This document shows, piece after piece, positions 11,696-59,316 of a stretch of DNA of 64,000 bases. The stretch lies in IMG/VR virus record IMGVR_UViG_3300012582_000194, positions 203,885 to 267,884 of that record; one strand, given 5' to 3'. Position numbers and translations under genes: made by a program. Source of the stretch: a virus. The notes under the pieces are model-generated. The model made no database searches. It saw only the letters and a list, made by a program, of their open reading frames with translations, and was not told the origin of the DNA. The number at the start of each line of letters is the position of its first letter. Position 1 is the stretch's first letter.

Positions 11696-12853
11696 TTAGG
11701 CTTCATATTGATTATAAATCATATTGATTCTTTCCTCGGTATATTGACATGTAAGCAAATAACTATCAACTTTCTGAGAAGGTAATTCAAACATAACATC
11801 ACTCATGATTTTCTCACAAATTGCTCTAAGTCCTCTAGCACCCAATTTAAATTCCAATGCTTTTTCAGCAATACATGCAATTGCATCTTCTTCTATTTCA
11901 AGCTTAATGTTATCAAGAGCGAATAATCTCACATATTGCTTCAATATAGAATTTCTAGGTTCAGTTAAAATTAATTTCAATGTTTCATTAGTAAGAGCAT
12001 CCAAATGAGTTAGTATCGGCAAACGCCCCAACAATTCAGTTATTAATCCGAATTGAATTAAATCTTGTACAGCAATACATTTCAATAGATTATCTTCGTT
12101 GATTGCTTGTGGAGTTTTGCTAGTGAATCCAACTTTACTATTCACATTCAATCTATTACGGATTATATCTTTAATACCACCAAAAGCACCACCTGAAATG
12201 AAAAGAATATTATCAGTATTCATTACCATCTCATTTTCAATGGCTTGTTTCTTACTTGGCTTTAGATTAACTATACTGCTTTCAAGTATTTTCAATAATG
12301 CTTGTTGTACACCGACACCCGCTACATCAAGCATTTGTGTTCCTTGAGTTCGTTTCTTAGCAATTTTATCAATTTCGTCAATATAGACAATACCTTTTTC
12401 TGCTTTTTTAATATCGAAATCCGATGCTTGTAATAAACGATATAAAATACTTTCAACATCTTCACCAGTATAACCTGTTTGAGTTAATGTAGTTGCATCT
12501 ACAATGCAAAATGGAACATCGAGAATTTTAGCAAGAATTTTAATCAAGTACGTTTTACCTGTGCCTGATTCACCAATCATAATAACATTGGATTTTTCGA
12601 TAATTACATCATCTTCATCTTTACAAGGATTGTTAATTCTCTTATAATGATTGTATGCTGCGACAGCAATAGTTTTCTTTGCTTCATCCTGACCAATAAC
12701 ATATTGATCCAAAAATTCTTTGATTTGTATAGGTTTTAAATCAAATGTTGGCGCTGCTTTTTTTATGAAATCTGGCTTAGAAGCCTTTTTGATAATTTTT
12801 TTAGGAAGTGGTTCAATCACTCTTTTTTTCTTCTTTTTGAATATTGTCTTCAT
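11696..12853 (-). CDS. clpX: ClpX-like AAA+ unfoldase lacking the zinc-binding domain
   Basis: 385 aa. A single ClpX-type AAA+ module: Walker A GESGTGKT (94-101), pore loop GYTG (127-130, GYVG in ClpX), Walker B IVYIDE (155-160), VAGVGVQQALLKILE (177-191), arginine-finger region LLGRLPIL and sensor-2 GARGLRAI (338-345). VGF at 241-243 sits where ClpX has its IGF loop that docks on ClpP. The N-terminal zinc-binding/adaptor domain is absent and replaced by a Lys-rich tail (about 35 residues), so substrate choice should differ. Known of the family: ATP-driven unfolding, delivery to ClpP. Inference: it borrows host ClpP to destroy chosen proteins. Its ATG is 4 nt after the -7 box, so the mRNA should be leaderless. 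Confidence 0.92.
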   Translation of the reverse strand: MKTIFKKKKKRVIEPLPKKIIKKASKPDFIKKAAPTFDLKPIQIKEFLDQYVIGQDEAKKTIAVAAYNHYKRINNPCKDEDDVIIEKSNVIMIGESGTGKTYLIKILAKILDVPFCIVDATTLTQTGYTGEDVESILYRLLQASDFDIKKAEKGIVYIDEIDKIAKKRTQGTQMLDVAGVGVQQALLKILESSIVNLKPSKKQAIENEMVMNTDNILFISGGAFGGIKDIIRNRLNVNSKVGFTSKTPQAINEDNLLKCIAVQDLIQFGLITELLGRLPILTHLDALTNETLKLILTEPRNSILKQYVRLFALDNIKLEIEEDAIACIAEKALEFKLGARGLRAICEKIMSDVMFELPSQKVDSYLLTCQYTEERINMIYNQYEA

Positions 12854-39873: not shown

Positions 39874-42000
39874 TTATTTAACTATTGTCATAGATATACT
39901 ATCAGGAACAAAATCATACTTAGAAAACGTCATATTAGGGACTGCTCTTCCAGATGTTAGAGTTCTTAATGATGTAATATAACCAAACAACATTGATAGT
40001 GGAACTGATGCAGTAATAAGCTGAGTATTTCCTTTATTGTCAATATTCGTAATAGAACCTCTTCTCTTATTCAAATCACCAGATACAGACCCAATAAAAT
40101 CATCAGGTGTAGTTACAACTACTTCCATGATAGGTTCTAATAATTTTGGTTTAGCTTGTTTAGAAGCTACTTTAAATCCTTCTTTTGCTGCTAATTCAAA
40201 TGACAATGCATCAGAATCCACATCATGATAAGAACCATGTATAAGTCTAATTTTCATAGATTCTACAGGATAGCCACCTAAAGGACCATTTTTCATAGCT
40301 TCTTCAAATCCTTTTTGAATAGGTGTGATAAATTCTTTTGGAATTACTCCACCAACTATTTCATTAACGAATTCCAAACCTAATTTTCCATCTTCACGTG
40401 GACCAATTTCAAACACAATATCAGCAAATTTACCTCTACCACCAGTTTGTTTACTGAATACTTCTCTATGTTGAAACTTATTAGTTAAGGTTTCTTTGTA
40501 CGCAACTAAAGGCGCACCTTGTTTTACCTCAACACCATGATCACGTTTCAATGTTTCAAGTCTAACTTCTAAGTGAAGCTCACCCATACCCCTTATTATA
40601 GTTTGACCAGTTTCTTTATCAGTATTTACTCTAAGAGATGGATCCTCTTCAACTAATTTAGAAAGAGCAATTCCCAATTTATCAGAATCCGCTTGACTTT
40701 TTGCTTCAATCGCATAACCTATCACAGGCTCAGGAAAAGACATAGACTCTAAAACAACTTTGTTATCAATAACAAGTGTATCACCAGTTCTAATATTCTT
40801 TATACCGATAAACGCAACTATATCACCTGCTTCTGCACTTTCAATTTGAATTTGCTTATTCGAGTGCATTTGTACAATTCTTGATACTCTTTCTTTAGTA
40901 CCTGTTCTCATATTAATAATATAAGAACCTGCATTAATATGACCAGAATAACATCTAACATAACACAACTTACCATATTGGTCAGTTGTTATCTTAAAAG
41001 CAAGTCCAGTAAATGGTCTACCAATCGCTGGAGTAATCTCAACTTCTTCATCAGTATCAGTATTTATACCCTTTGTGATCCTATCTTTAGGTGAAGGAAG
41101 ATATGCACATACAGCATCTATTACAGACTGAACACCTTTATTTTTAAAGGCAGAACCGCAAAGAACTGGAAATATTTTCATTTCAACAGTAGCCTTTCTG
41201 ATAACAGATTTCACTTCTTCTTCACTAATTTCTTGATTATCCAAATATTTTAGCATAAGTTCATCATCATATTCAGATAGAGTTTCTAATAAAGATTTTC
41301 TGTATTCATTTACAGTTTCTACTATATCTGTCGGAATTTCAATTTCTCTATAAGTTTTACCTTCATCTTCAGTATTCCATAGAATACCTTTCATTGCAAT
41401 TAAATCAACTACCCCGATAAAACCATCTTCTGAACCAATTGGTATTTGTAATGGTATTGCATTCGCACCGAGTTTTTCTCTTATAGTTTTAACAGCCTTA
41501 AAGAAGTTAGCACCCGCTCTATCCATTTTATTAACAAAACATACTCTTGGAACACCATAACGATCAGCTTGTCTCCAAACAGTCTCAGACTGTGGTTCTA
41601 CACCCGATACAGCGCAAAATAGAGCAACTGCACCATCCAATACTCTAAGTGAACGTTCTACCTCAACTGTAAAGTCAACATGTCCTGGTGTGTCTATAAT
41701 GTTAATATTATAGGATTCACTATTTGGTATAAGTTCACCTTGTGTTGTTGGATAGTTCCAAAATACTGTAGTTGCAGCAGAAGTAATCGTAATACCTCTT
41801 TCTTTTTCTAAATCCATATGGTCCATTGTAGCACCCGCACCATCTCTATCATGTACTTCACCAATTTTGTGTGTTTTACCCGTATAATATAAAATACGCT
41901 CTGTTGTTGTAGTTTTACCAGCATCGATATGGGCCATAATTCCAACATTTCTAAGTAGTCCGAGTTCCTTACCTTTCCTACCTGTATCCGAATCTTTCAT
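39874..42000 (-). CDS. fusA: translation elongation factor G
   Basis: 708 aa, full bacterial EF-G length. G domain: AHIDAGKTT (23-31), [11 protein letters not shown] (68-78), DTPGHVDFT (103-111), NKMDRAG (157-163), [10 protein letters not shown]. The later domains II-V are complete ([53 protein letters not shown]). The [11 protein letters not shown] stretch before DTPGH is a Bacteroidetes-type feature, so transfer from a host relative is likely. Known role: GTP-driven ribosomal translocation and, with RRF, recycling. Apart from one tRNA gene no other translation gene is seen in the window. Its leader holds a peptide and terminator hairpin (42041-42167), implying attenuation control. Not obviously damaged; possible roles are escape from host EF-G shutdown or inhibitors. 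Confidence 0.96.
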
Positions 42001-42040
42001 TTTCTTTTTTTTTATTTTTTGGTTAATTTTTACAAATAAA

Positions 42041-42069
42041 AAACCCTGAATTTTTTATGTTCAGGGTTT
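42041..42069 (-). terminator. intrinsic terminator inside the EF-G leader (attenuator)
   Basis: Minus strand AAACCCTGAA-(9 nt)-TTCAGGGTTT followed by TTTATTTG. It faces the EF-G start at 42000 and there is no other minus-strand gene to end except the leader peptide. ACCCTG of the 5' arm can instead pair with CAGGGT upstream (42109-42114 in plus coordinates). Confidence 0.75.
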
Positions 42070-42095
42070 ATATGATTGATTAAAAGTATTAGAAT

Positions 42096-42167
42096 TTAGT
42101 CAATATATACCCTGTCGTATCTTGATACGATAATTGTTTTGATAATAAATTTTAATACTGTTTTCAT
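42096..42167 (-). CDS. 23-aa putative leader peptide upstream of EF-G
   Basis: ATG at 42167 to TAA at 42096: MKTVLKFIIKTIIVS, then RYDRVYID. Five of 23 residues are Ile. The codons for D-R-V contain CAGGGT, which can pair with the terminator's 5' arm, so ribosome position would decide terminator formation. Short frames arise by chance; the arrangement, not the sequence alone, is the evidence. Confidence 0.45.
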   Translation of the reverse strand: MKTVLKFIIKTIIVSRYDRVYID

Positions 42168-42261
42168 AATATTCTATATATCTTTGTGTATTATACCTCT
42201 ATAACGCAAAAATATCAAAAATGTTATATCTTTAAAGAAAACATTTTAAATATATATCATT

Positions 42262-45955: not shown

Positions 45956-46528
45956 ATGTCAAATATTATAGAAGATAAAGATTATATATTGGTAAACATT
46001 GAAAACGCAAAATTCAATGTTGAAGGCATTTTAGAAAAAATGCTTGATAAATCTTATTTGAAATATAAAATTTTTAATAATAGATTTACTATCTTTTTTA
46101 AAGATGGTGGATTTTTTGGGCATGGTTTGAGTGAATTGATTAAGTATGCTGAAAATGATGGTACTTGGTATTCTAATACATGGAACTGTATTCTTGGTAC
46201 AGAGCCATATACAGGAAGATTGCGTTCTTTATATTATGATGAATTTGTATTTTTGCTTTCCGAAGATTTAATTCAATTTGATGATTTTGAGTTGTTGACT
46301 TCTGATGATATTTGGAAAAATTTTGATAATTATATTGAAGCTAAAGAAACTCCTTTCTTAAAATCTCTTATGGATTGTAAAAATAAAGCCGATTTAAGAA
46401 AGGAGTATAGAAAGCTTGTTATGGAATATCATCCTGATAAAACAGGTAGCGATAACGAGCAAATTAGACAAATTACAGCAACTTATTTGAGACTTGTAAA
46501 ACAAGTTAATAGTCTTAAAACATTTTAA
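45956..46528 (+). CDS. J-domain protein (C-terminal J domain)
   Basis: 190 aa. The last about 60 residues are a J domain: KADLRKEYRKLVMEYHPDKT with the obligatory HPD at 159-161 and a following helix IRQITATYLRLVKQ. The first 130 residues are unlike any J-protein client domain I know (WYSNTWNCILGTEPYTGRLR, acidic DDFELLTSDDIW). A J domain stimulates Hsp70/DnaK ATPase; with the domain last, the protein probably brings host DnaK to a phage target (inference). Predicted leaderless from a strong promoter. Confidence 0.82.
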   Translation: MSNIIEDKDYILVNIENAKFNVEGILEKMLDKSYLKYKIFNNRFTIFFKDGGFFGHGLSELIKYAENDGTWYSNTWNCILGTEPYTGRLRSLYYDEFVFLLSEDLIQFDDFELLTSDDIWKNFDNYIEAKETPFLKSLMDCKNKADLRKEYRKLVMEYHPDKTGSDNEQIRQITATYLRLVKQVNSLKTF

Positions 46529-46602: not shown

Positions 46603-47190
46603 ATGAAGTTAAGTGAATATGCAAAGGAATTAGGAGTTAGTTATAGAACAGTTTTTAGATGGTTTCAAGAGAATAGACTACCAGATGATGTTATATCTAA
46701 ACAAACACCATCAGGAACAATAATAATTGAGAAGATTGTTGATAATTCTCATTTCGAACAAAAGAATATTTTTATTTATTGTAGGGTGTCATCTTACGAA
46801 AAAAAAGATGATTTAAATAGACAAATAAAACGCTGTGAAGATTATTGTATATCTAGTGGTTATAAAATAACTAAAGTATTTAAAGAAATTGGTTCAGGTA
46901 TGAATGATAATAGAACACAATTAACAAAAATGTTAAATTCGAATCCAAATATAATAGTAATTGAAAATAAAGATAGAATTACAAGATTCGGATTTAATTA
47001 TCTTAATTTACTATTATCTAAAATGAATTGTAAAATAGACATTATAAATGTTGAAAATAATAATGAAAAGGATTTAAATAAAGATTTGATTTCAATTATA
47101 TCATCTTTCTGTTGTAGATTGTATGGTATGAGGAAAGGTTATAATAAAGCAAAAAGTATTAAAGATAAAATTGAAAACAATAATATTTAA
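46603..47190 (+). CDS. tnpA: IS607-family serine recombinase
   Basis: 195 aa. N-terminal MerR-like helix-turn-helix (LSEYAKELGVSYRTVFRWFQ), then the small serine-recombinase catalytic domain: IYCRVSS with nucleophile Ser63, the IGSGMNDNR loop, IENKDRITRFG (E-x-K-D-R-x-x-R). The N-terminal placement of the DNA-binding domain is diagnostic of IS607. Excises and inserts the element. Overlaps tnpB by 20 nt. Confidence 0.9.
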   Translation: MKLSEYAKELGVSYRTVFRWFQENRLPDDVISKQTPSGTIIIEKIVDNSHFEQKNIFIYCRVSSYEKKDDLNRQIKRCEDYCISSGYKITKVFKEIGSGMNDNRTQLTKMLNSNPNIIVIENKDRITRFGFNYLNLLLSKMNCKIDIINVENNNEKDLNKDLISIISSFCCRLYGMRKGYNKAKSIKDKIENNNI

Positions 47191-59242: not shown

Positions 59243-59316
59243 TGCTGTGGAGCAGATTTGAACCGCTCTATTCTACCATATCAGAGTAGTGTGTTAACCG
59301 AATACAACCACACAGC
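59243..59316 (-). tRNA. tRNA-Ile (anticodon GAU)
   Basis: 74-nt cloverleaf on the minus strand. Acceptor GCTGTG(T)/(C)CACAGC with discriminator A; D loop with A14, G18G19 and a weak 3-bp stem; anticodon stem CTACT/GGTAG with loop C-T-G-A-T-A-T, so anticodon GAT; 5-nt variable region; T arm AGCGG-TTCAAAT-CTGCT. Oddities: T-C mismatch at the last acceptor pair and no T at position 8. CCA is not encoded. Reads AUU/AUC, which are very common codons in this genome. Confidence 0.75.

Follow-up and report, generated by a model that had tools for sequence, protein, structure and literature searches.

Huge phages carry dozens of tRNAs, aminoacyl-tRNA synthetases and translation factors, which raises the question of why they do so and how these components are matched to demand. 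We asked this at one locus: what controls the gene for elongation factor EF-G in such a phage? The stretch of DNA analysed, 64,000 nucleotides long and hereafter called the window, sits in a 268-kb virus record and corresponds to positions 25892-89891 of LR756504.1, a complete 636-kb phage. This genome is among the four largest known for phages (634, 636, 642 and 735 kb) and belongs to the Mahaphage clade, with Bacteroidetes as predicted hosts (PMC7162821). The paper reporting the same huge-phage genomes (Al-Shayeb et al. 2020; PMC7162821) lists EF-G, tRNAs, synthetases and L7/L12; regulation is not described there, and the words ‘leader’, ‘terminator’, ‘riboswitch’ and ‘operon’ are absent from its main text. 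Four genomes, all Mahaphages, are referred to below as W01 (LR756504), W02 (LR756502), W03 (LR745206) and W04 (LR756501). Further copies of the exact EF-G locus were all identical (L001, L003).

A first-pass annotation, made from the letters of the window, had proposed that EF-G lies behind a leader-peptide attenuator comprising a short frame that contains CAGGGT, a terminator with its T run and then the EF-G start codon. All of these elements are present on the minus strand, and are given here in window coordinates together with the parts added by the present analysis:

42190-42218, minus strand: putative promoter TTGATA-17-TATAAT, with a predicted transcription start at about 42183
42096-42167, minus strand: leader frame MKTVLKFIIKTIIVSRYDRVYID, 23 codons, ATG at 42167, stop codon at 42098-42096
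42117-42130, minus strand: small hairpin CGUAUCAAGAUACG within the leader, immediately 5' of the antiterminator, seen in the folds
42114-42109, minus strand: CAGGGT within the leader
42095-42114, minus strand: antiterminator 5' strand CAGGGUAUAUAUUGACUAAA, spanning the leader end and the stop codon
42062-42084, minus strand: antiterminator 3' strand UUUAAUCAAUCAUAUAAACCCUG, which shares bases with the terminator 5' arm
42038-42069, minus strand: intrinsic terminator as a whole, with a 10-bp stem, a 9-nt loop and a T run
42069-42060, minus strand: terminator 5' arm AAACCCTGAA, followed by the loop (42059-42051), the 3' arm TTCAGGGTTT (42050-42041) and the T run (42043-42038)
39874-42000, minus strand: EF-G, 708 aa, the controlled gene, ATG at 42000

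An intrinsic terminator thus lies between leader and gene. The putative promoter matches the consensus at 11 of 12 positions, a weak signal in so AT-rich a stretch, where 129 such sites were found against 118 expected. Hairpin CGUAUCAAGAUACG is a candidate pause hairpin, judging by its place in the modelled folds. The EF-G start is A-rich, lies 41 nt downstream of the terminator hairpin and falls outside both switching helices.

The controlled protein is a true EF-G, scoring 962.9 bits against the TIGR00484 model (cut-off 659.4). This bears on the idea that the attenuator, like the one of Tet(M), answers to antibiotics directed at the ribosome, in which case EF-G would serve in resistance or rescue. 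The two proteins are related GTPases, and attenuator control of Tet(M) is well established. However, the ribosomal-protection model (tet_protect) gave a score of only 369 against a cut-off of 775, so that a Tet(M)-like ribosomal protection protein was rejected, and the sister devices described below govern tRNAs and synthetases rather than resistance genes. We regard drug-responsive control as extremely unlikely here; since any drug inducer would also slow translation, it overlaps in part with the reading that we prefer, ribosome-mediated attenuation.

The annotation had further proposed that CAGGGT pairs with the first arm of the terminator, giving two mutually exclusive structures. Exclusive structures do exist, but the helix is about 19 bp long, of which the annotation had recognized the first six pairs. 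Pairing of CAGGGUAUAUAUUGACUAAA with UUUAAUCAAUCAUAUAAACCCUG has a predicted energy of -13.7 kcal/mol, compared with -12.1 kcal/mol for the terminator alone, and the antiterminator is the minimum-energy structure in RNAs cut 5' of the terminator 3' arm. The whole leader region folds at z = -2.98. In a model in which a ribosome was set on each leader codon in turn and the RNA masked up to 15 nt beyond the A-site, upstream pairing of the terminator arm came to 0.63 (6 of 10 nt) with the A-site at any of codons 2-13 and to 0.52 with codon 14; it dropped to 0.09 with codon 15 and to 0.06 once the stop codon was reached. Folding therefore bore out the annotation's suggestion that ribosome position decides the pairing of the terminator arm: in silico, an antiterminator that depends on ribosome position joins the leader end to the terminator 5' arm, and leader codons 2-14 form a stall-sensitive zone.

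These folds, together with the sister loci described below, make it very probable on sequence grounds that the phage EF-G gene is preceded by a ribosome-mediated transcription attenuator, one of a network of such devices in Mahaphages. RNA polymerase would start near 42183, with a ribosome trailing it on the 23-codon leader. A ribosome reaching the stop codon would cover 42114-42095, allowing the terminator to form and transcription to end at about 42038. With a ribosome stalled or lagging on codons 2-14, or never loaded, the 19-bp antiterminator would form first and sequester the terminator 5' arm, and EF-G would be transcribed. As the terminator wins at equilibrium once the RNA is fully transcribed, the switch would have to be kinetic, as in known attenuators.

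Taken by itself, the EF-G locus is suggestive rather than conclusive. The observed antiterminator was reached in 25 of 5000 dinucleotide shuffles of leader plus spacer (p ~0.005) and in 277 of 5000 synonymous recodings that kept the peptide (p ~0.055), so the locus is only moderately unlikely to have arisen by chance. The hairpin could on that account be an ordinary terminator that blocks read-through arriving from elsewhere or ends a small RNA started at this promoter, with the leader and alternative helix an accident of AT-rich sequence; terminator-like sites are common in W01 (135, mostly at gene ends). The EF-G hairpin, however, has no gene end to terminate, since its upstream neighbour is divergent; among 99 intergenic terminator-like hairpins in W01, it alone has a divergent gene behind it and the start of a same-strand gene ahead. 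The stall zone of the leader also fits the antiterminator geometry, and the same architecture recurs with codon-matched leaders at more than 30 loci. An ordinary terminator is accordingly an improbable account. In the 636 kb of W01, EF-G is the sole protein gene (at least 100 aa) preceded by leader, antiterminator and terminator.

The same device precedes most of the tRNA arrays identified in four related phages, and four other phages supplied additional cases; at more than 30 of these analogous loci the codons of the leader correspond to the tRNAs or synthetases under its control. The attenuator reading put forward in the annotation is strengthened by the codon-by-codon ribosome folds and above all by these loci, and the architecture is conserved in several phages. 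In W01, two more hairpins distant from gene ends have a leader frame and an antiterminator, with tRNA genes downstream. Seven W01 array leaders, all located outside the window, have codons that match their tRNAs (L143-L174):

222598, 401993, 401685, 400275 and 133129 of LR756504.1, minus strand: tRNA-array leaders
309669 and 588402 of LR756504.1, plus strand: tRNA-array leaders, 588402 being the one for Leu, Ser and Cys

Leader MKTVNTNIAIVEIAVIGGAEEGVMGVYCLNSKTS precedes Glu-Ala-Ile-Val-Gly-Glu tRNAs and MKAMILSLCLSLSLSLQKLGVVGVCKVIS precedes Leu-Leu-Ser-Cys-Ser-Ser-Leu-Leu tRNAs, the amino acids matching exactly; MRTVISNIAKQDKQYQPQYD... stands before Asp, Tyr, Gln and Lys tRNAs, and MKNLTNIFWHFHF... 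before Trp, His and Phe tRNAs, the Trp tRNA (CCA anticodon) having been recognized by eye where ARAGORN missed it. The correspondence can be read directly from peptide motifs: QQQQQQQ (W02 422937) before four tRNA-Gln, LSLCLSLSLSL before Leu/Ser/Cys and FWHFHF before Trp/His/Phe. Segment GGGTgTATATTG is common to the W01 array attenuators and the EF-G attenuator, and the antiterminator segment of W01 EF-G resembles that of the W01 arrays (CAGGGTATATATTG versus GGGTGTATATTG). Several W01 leaders have common GGAAAACATTTnnnnATATATACGTTATAATAA-like upstream elements, ACATTT...CGTTATA stretches related to the putative EF-G promoter lie 5' of several array leaders, and W02 and W03 leaders have Bacteroidota-type TATATTTG boxes.

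The match was quantified with a rule blind to leader content. For any terminator hairpin no more than 700 nt upstream of a tRNA, it selected the longest of those ATG frames (11-48 codons) whose end lay 4-62 nt 5' of the hairpin. Applied to W01-W04, the rule returned 25 loci, with leaders including MTTSFQQQQQQQINRTD before four tRNA-Gln, MTTTQQIQQQQINQTD before three tRNA-Gln, MKTTIKNTSSRSRSSKS... before Arg-Ser-Arg, MKTIAMIIRMRIIRPKMLG before Arg-Ile-Met, MNNILHINLLNSLCLLG... before five Leu, and MLFNSNISVKFTPAPAVAFRRGTGTGTGTCVPAG... before Arg, Thr, Val, Ala, Gly and Pro tRNAs. The fraction of matching residues, summed over the 25 loci, was 9.4, compared with 3.8 expected from proteome composition; the two shifted frames of the same leaders gave 4.4 and 3.0, which is background. 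When leaders were permuted among arrays, none of 100,000 permutations reached the observed match, and the same held within genomes. Of the 255 matching codons, 230 can be read by one of the anticodons in the same array. Because the match is frame-specific, translation of the leaders is implied at these sister loci.

For 24 leaders, RNA folding alone was used to compute the final codon where stalling of the ribosome still permits the antiterminator. Array-matching residues made up 49% of positions inside the stall zone so defined and 23% outside it (Fisher p = 1.5e-10), as in MttsfQQQQQQQi|nrtd and MktinntSkSSSRSSS|mseirlys, where the bar marks the boundary. Since the matching codons end at a boundary set by folding, leader content is linked to where the ribosome stands; this connects it with attenuation, as opposed to a function of the peptide. 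The predicted antiterminator is weak in the array device at W04 188505, and one rule-based match (W03 522535) was set aside as an ordinary gene end.

A second, independent set comprised G001 and G002 (IMG/VR), Lak-C1 (MK250029) and LR756508, some of the leaders being selected by eye. Its leaders include MKNMVYNINDCIYNDKRKMLIG before Ile, Cys, Asp, Asn and Tyr tRNAs, MKTLNMTYGMHPVCGMVHMFPCGGGRPM... before His-Pro-Arg-Arg-Cys-Met, MKNRVNINLYYLYLYLYQNRG... before Tyr and seven Leu, and ...NPRPERPTEVTTIVVEETA... before Glu, Arg, Pro, Thr, Ala and Val tRNAs. Nine rule-based loci, two evident non-attenuators included, gave p ~8e-4. In W01, no leader was found for the Met/Thr/Asn end of the array lying at 132.6-136.4 kb, and the same was true of most W06 arrays and most of the second Lak array. 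An initial scan had returned 36, 32 and 43 matches compared with 12, 17 and 3 in the reversed-sequence control, so its weak matches were not trusted. Some tRNAs have a stop-reading anticodon (cta; ARAGORN: Pyl or Stop) and are possible suppressors (W04 690585-690738; Lak-C1, L287 and L288).

We also scanned for the device upstream of any protein gene of at least 100 aa. In W02 and W03, most of the genes found encode synthetases:

W02/W03: IleRS leader MNFNTIIIIRYSIPWSIPIG (IIII, at W03 381899)
W02/W03: ValRS leader MKTINLNNLVVVNVSV (VVV)
W02/W03: LeuRS leader MINNNVNILLLPLT (LLL)
W02/W03: AsnRS leader MKTMTINNRNRLTDII
W02/W03: AspRS leaders MRKIIKLKDDRYLWTDCLAD and MKNIRLNDDRFLLTNCKADW
W03: HisRS leader MRALHTYKITIDLG, with its W02 homologue MKTLHTYKNVIDWM picked by eye

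For those proteins that were submitted, NCBIfam confirmed the synthetase identities; HisRS of W03, together with the LeuRS and ValRS frames, fell short of the whole-protein cut-offs, as partial or divergent forms. The leaders match their synthetases with a permutation p of ~1e-4, so that cognate control codons mark tRNA arrays and synthetases alike. The device also occurs upstream of L7/L12, and further loci lie in W02, W03, W04, G001, G002, Lak-C1 and LR756508 (L175-L296); in W04 the scan returned unrelated matches too, which were counted as background. Between the leader MKTLHTYK/MRALHTYK and HisRS, a basic protein of about 65 aa is conserved (W02 from 377658 onward, W03 from 345085 onward). 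No relatives of the phage AspRS were found in IMG/VR. The upstream regions of ileS, the one gene examined, in 14 Bacteroidota genomes had no Ile-rich leader, so nothing there pointed to host ileS as the source of the device.

The network would thus comprise tRNA arrays and the genes for L7/L12, EF-G and six or more aminoacyl-tRNA synthetases, all behind leaders of this type. Those of arrays and synthetases are spelled in the cognate amino acids and would therefore sense scarcity of the corresponding charged tRNAs. EF-G is one member of this set and not a special case. Its own leader zone, KTVLKFIIKTIIV, is of mixed composition and points to no one cognate amino acid. One view is that it is specific for isoleucine, or for the set I/K/T, rather than for elongation generally. 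Each of the three EF-G leaders known from Mahaphages is rich in Ile (FIIKTII, LIYI, VIII); Ile accounts for four of the 13 W01 zone codons and nine of about 42 residues in the three leaders, compared with a background of 9.3%. This enrichment is weak, however, beside the far purer leaders elsewhere in the network (QQQQQQQ, IIII), and EF-G has no obvious tie to Ile; we consider specific isoleucine sensing unlikely, though an Ile bias is possible. The simplest and best reading, we infer, is that the EF-G leader probably senses slow elongation in general, as a translocation factor would need. The autogenous sensor of translation speed envisaged in the annotation would be consistent with this.

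The arrangement ahead of EF-G varies among relatives. The annotation had looked to conservation of the leader and its pairing segments, and for EF-G alone the outcome is mixed: the leader sequence is not conserved, and W02 and W03 have a short leader and a hairpin (MKTLIYIRAVV, L004 2830-3000; MKNVIIIRAVL, L005 2800-2995) in place of a canonical terminator. In W04, G001 and G002, EF-G is instead the last gene of an attenuator-led tRNA operon, which in W04 starts with L7/L12. L7/L12 is the protein that recruits EF-G. The W02/W03 hairpin shows compensatory changes (CCAACCAC/GTGGTTGG versus TCAATCACC/GGTGATTGA) and lacks a proper T run, and with its leader possibly represents another mode of control. 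The latter feature would suit regulation of EF-G translation rather than transcription, with leader translation masking or unmasking the start. In the window, by contrast, a strong T run follows the hairpin, and the switching helices do not include the EF-G start, so that translational control seems very unlikely there. A leader was absent at most phage EF-G genes in IMG/VR and at cellular EF-G genes (str operon), and a DNA pattern derived from the W02/W03 EF-G leaders gave only chance matches in IMG/VR.

Set beside known systems, the mechanism is classical ribosome-mediated attenuation; what is new is its targets and its use as a network in phages. As in the amino-acid operons (trp, his, leu, ilv, thr) and pheST (pheM leader) of Proteobacteria, a short leader is rich in control codons, the antiterminator overlaps the leader end, the terminator lies 5' of the gene and stalling leads to read-through. 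Unlike those systems, the phage devices act on tRNA arrays, a panel of synthetases, L7/L12 and EF-G, and a single leader can combine codons for several amino acids at once, in keeping with the polycistronic tRNA array that it controls. They have no established protector hairpin, so a missing ribosome should also turn the gene on, unlike in amino-acid operons. T-box riboswitches of Gram-positive synthetase genes likewise sense tRNA charging and control translation genes by antitermination, but recognize uncharged tRNA by direct binding and work without a leader peptide, whereas the phage device is leader-based. A T-box was rejected: none reached the Rfam gathering score in the window, and nothing T-box-like appeared at the locus at a relaxed E-value. 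Other Rfam matches there (HrrF, Thr_leader and others) were discarded as far below gathering scores. The attenuators of tet(M), erm and fusB (a fusidic-acid gene) also use a leader peptide and stalling to govern a factor acting on the ribosome or EF-G; their inducer is a drug, whereas the phage EF-G is of the housekeeping type.

We know of no earlier case, in phages or in cells, of leader-peptide feedback on sets of tRNA genes, and the open-access PMC literature, to which the search extended, yielded no report of leader-peptide attenuation of such sets. If the attenuators work as their sequences say, supply would follow demand by feedback, a ribosome short of a charged tRNA turning on the array that encodes it. 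It is likely that translation in giant phages of Bacteroidota is a self-tuning economy of this kind, in which attenuators spelled in cognate codons add just those tRNAs, synthetases and the elongation factor that are limiting at a given point of the infection, and EF-G reads general speed. The EF-G leader would then be explained as part of a system and not as a curiosity. As the codon content of each leader names the shortage that it reads, about 40 separate testable predictions follow, and the leaders would, if this is true, make a ready-made panel of tRNA-charging sensors.

Elsewhere in the window, a possible degenerate tRNA lies at 59243-59316 on the minus strand (Rfam, 33.2 bits, with no ARAGORN call). 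Other genes annotated in the window are:

11696-12853, minus strand: ClpX-like AAA ATPase
45956-46528, plus strand: DnaJ-domain protein
46603-47190, plus strand: resolvase-domain protein
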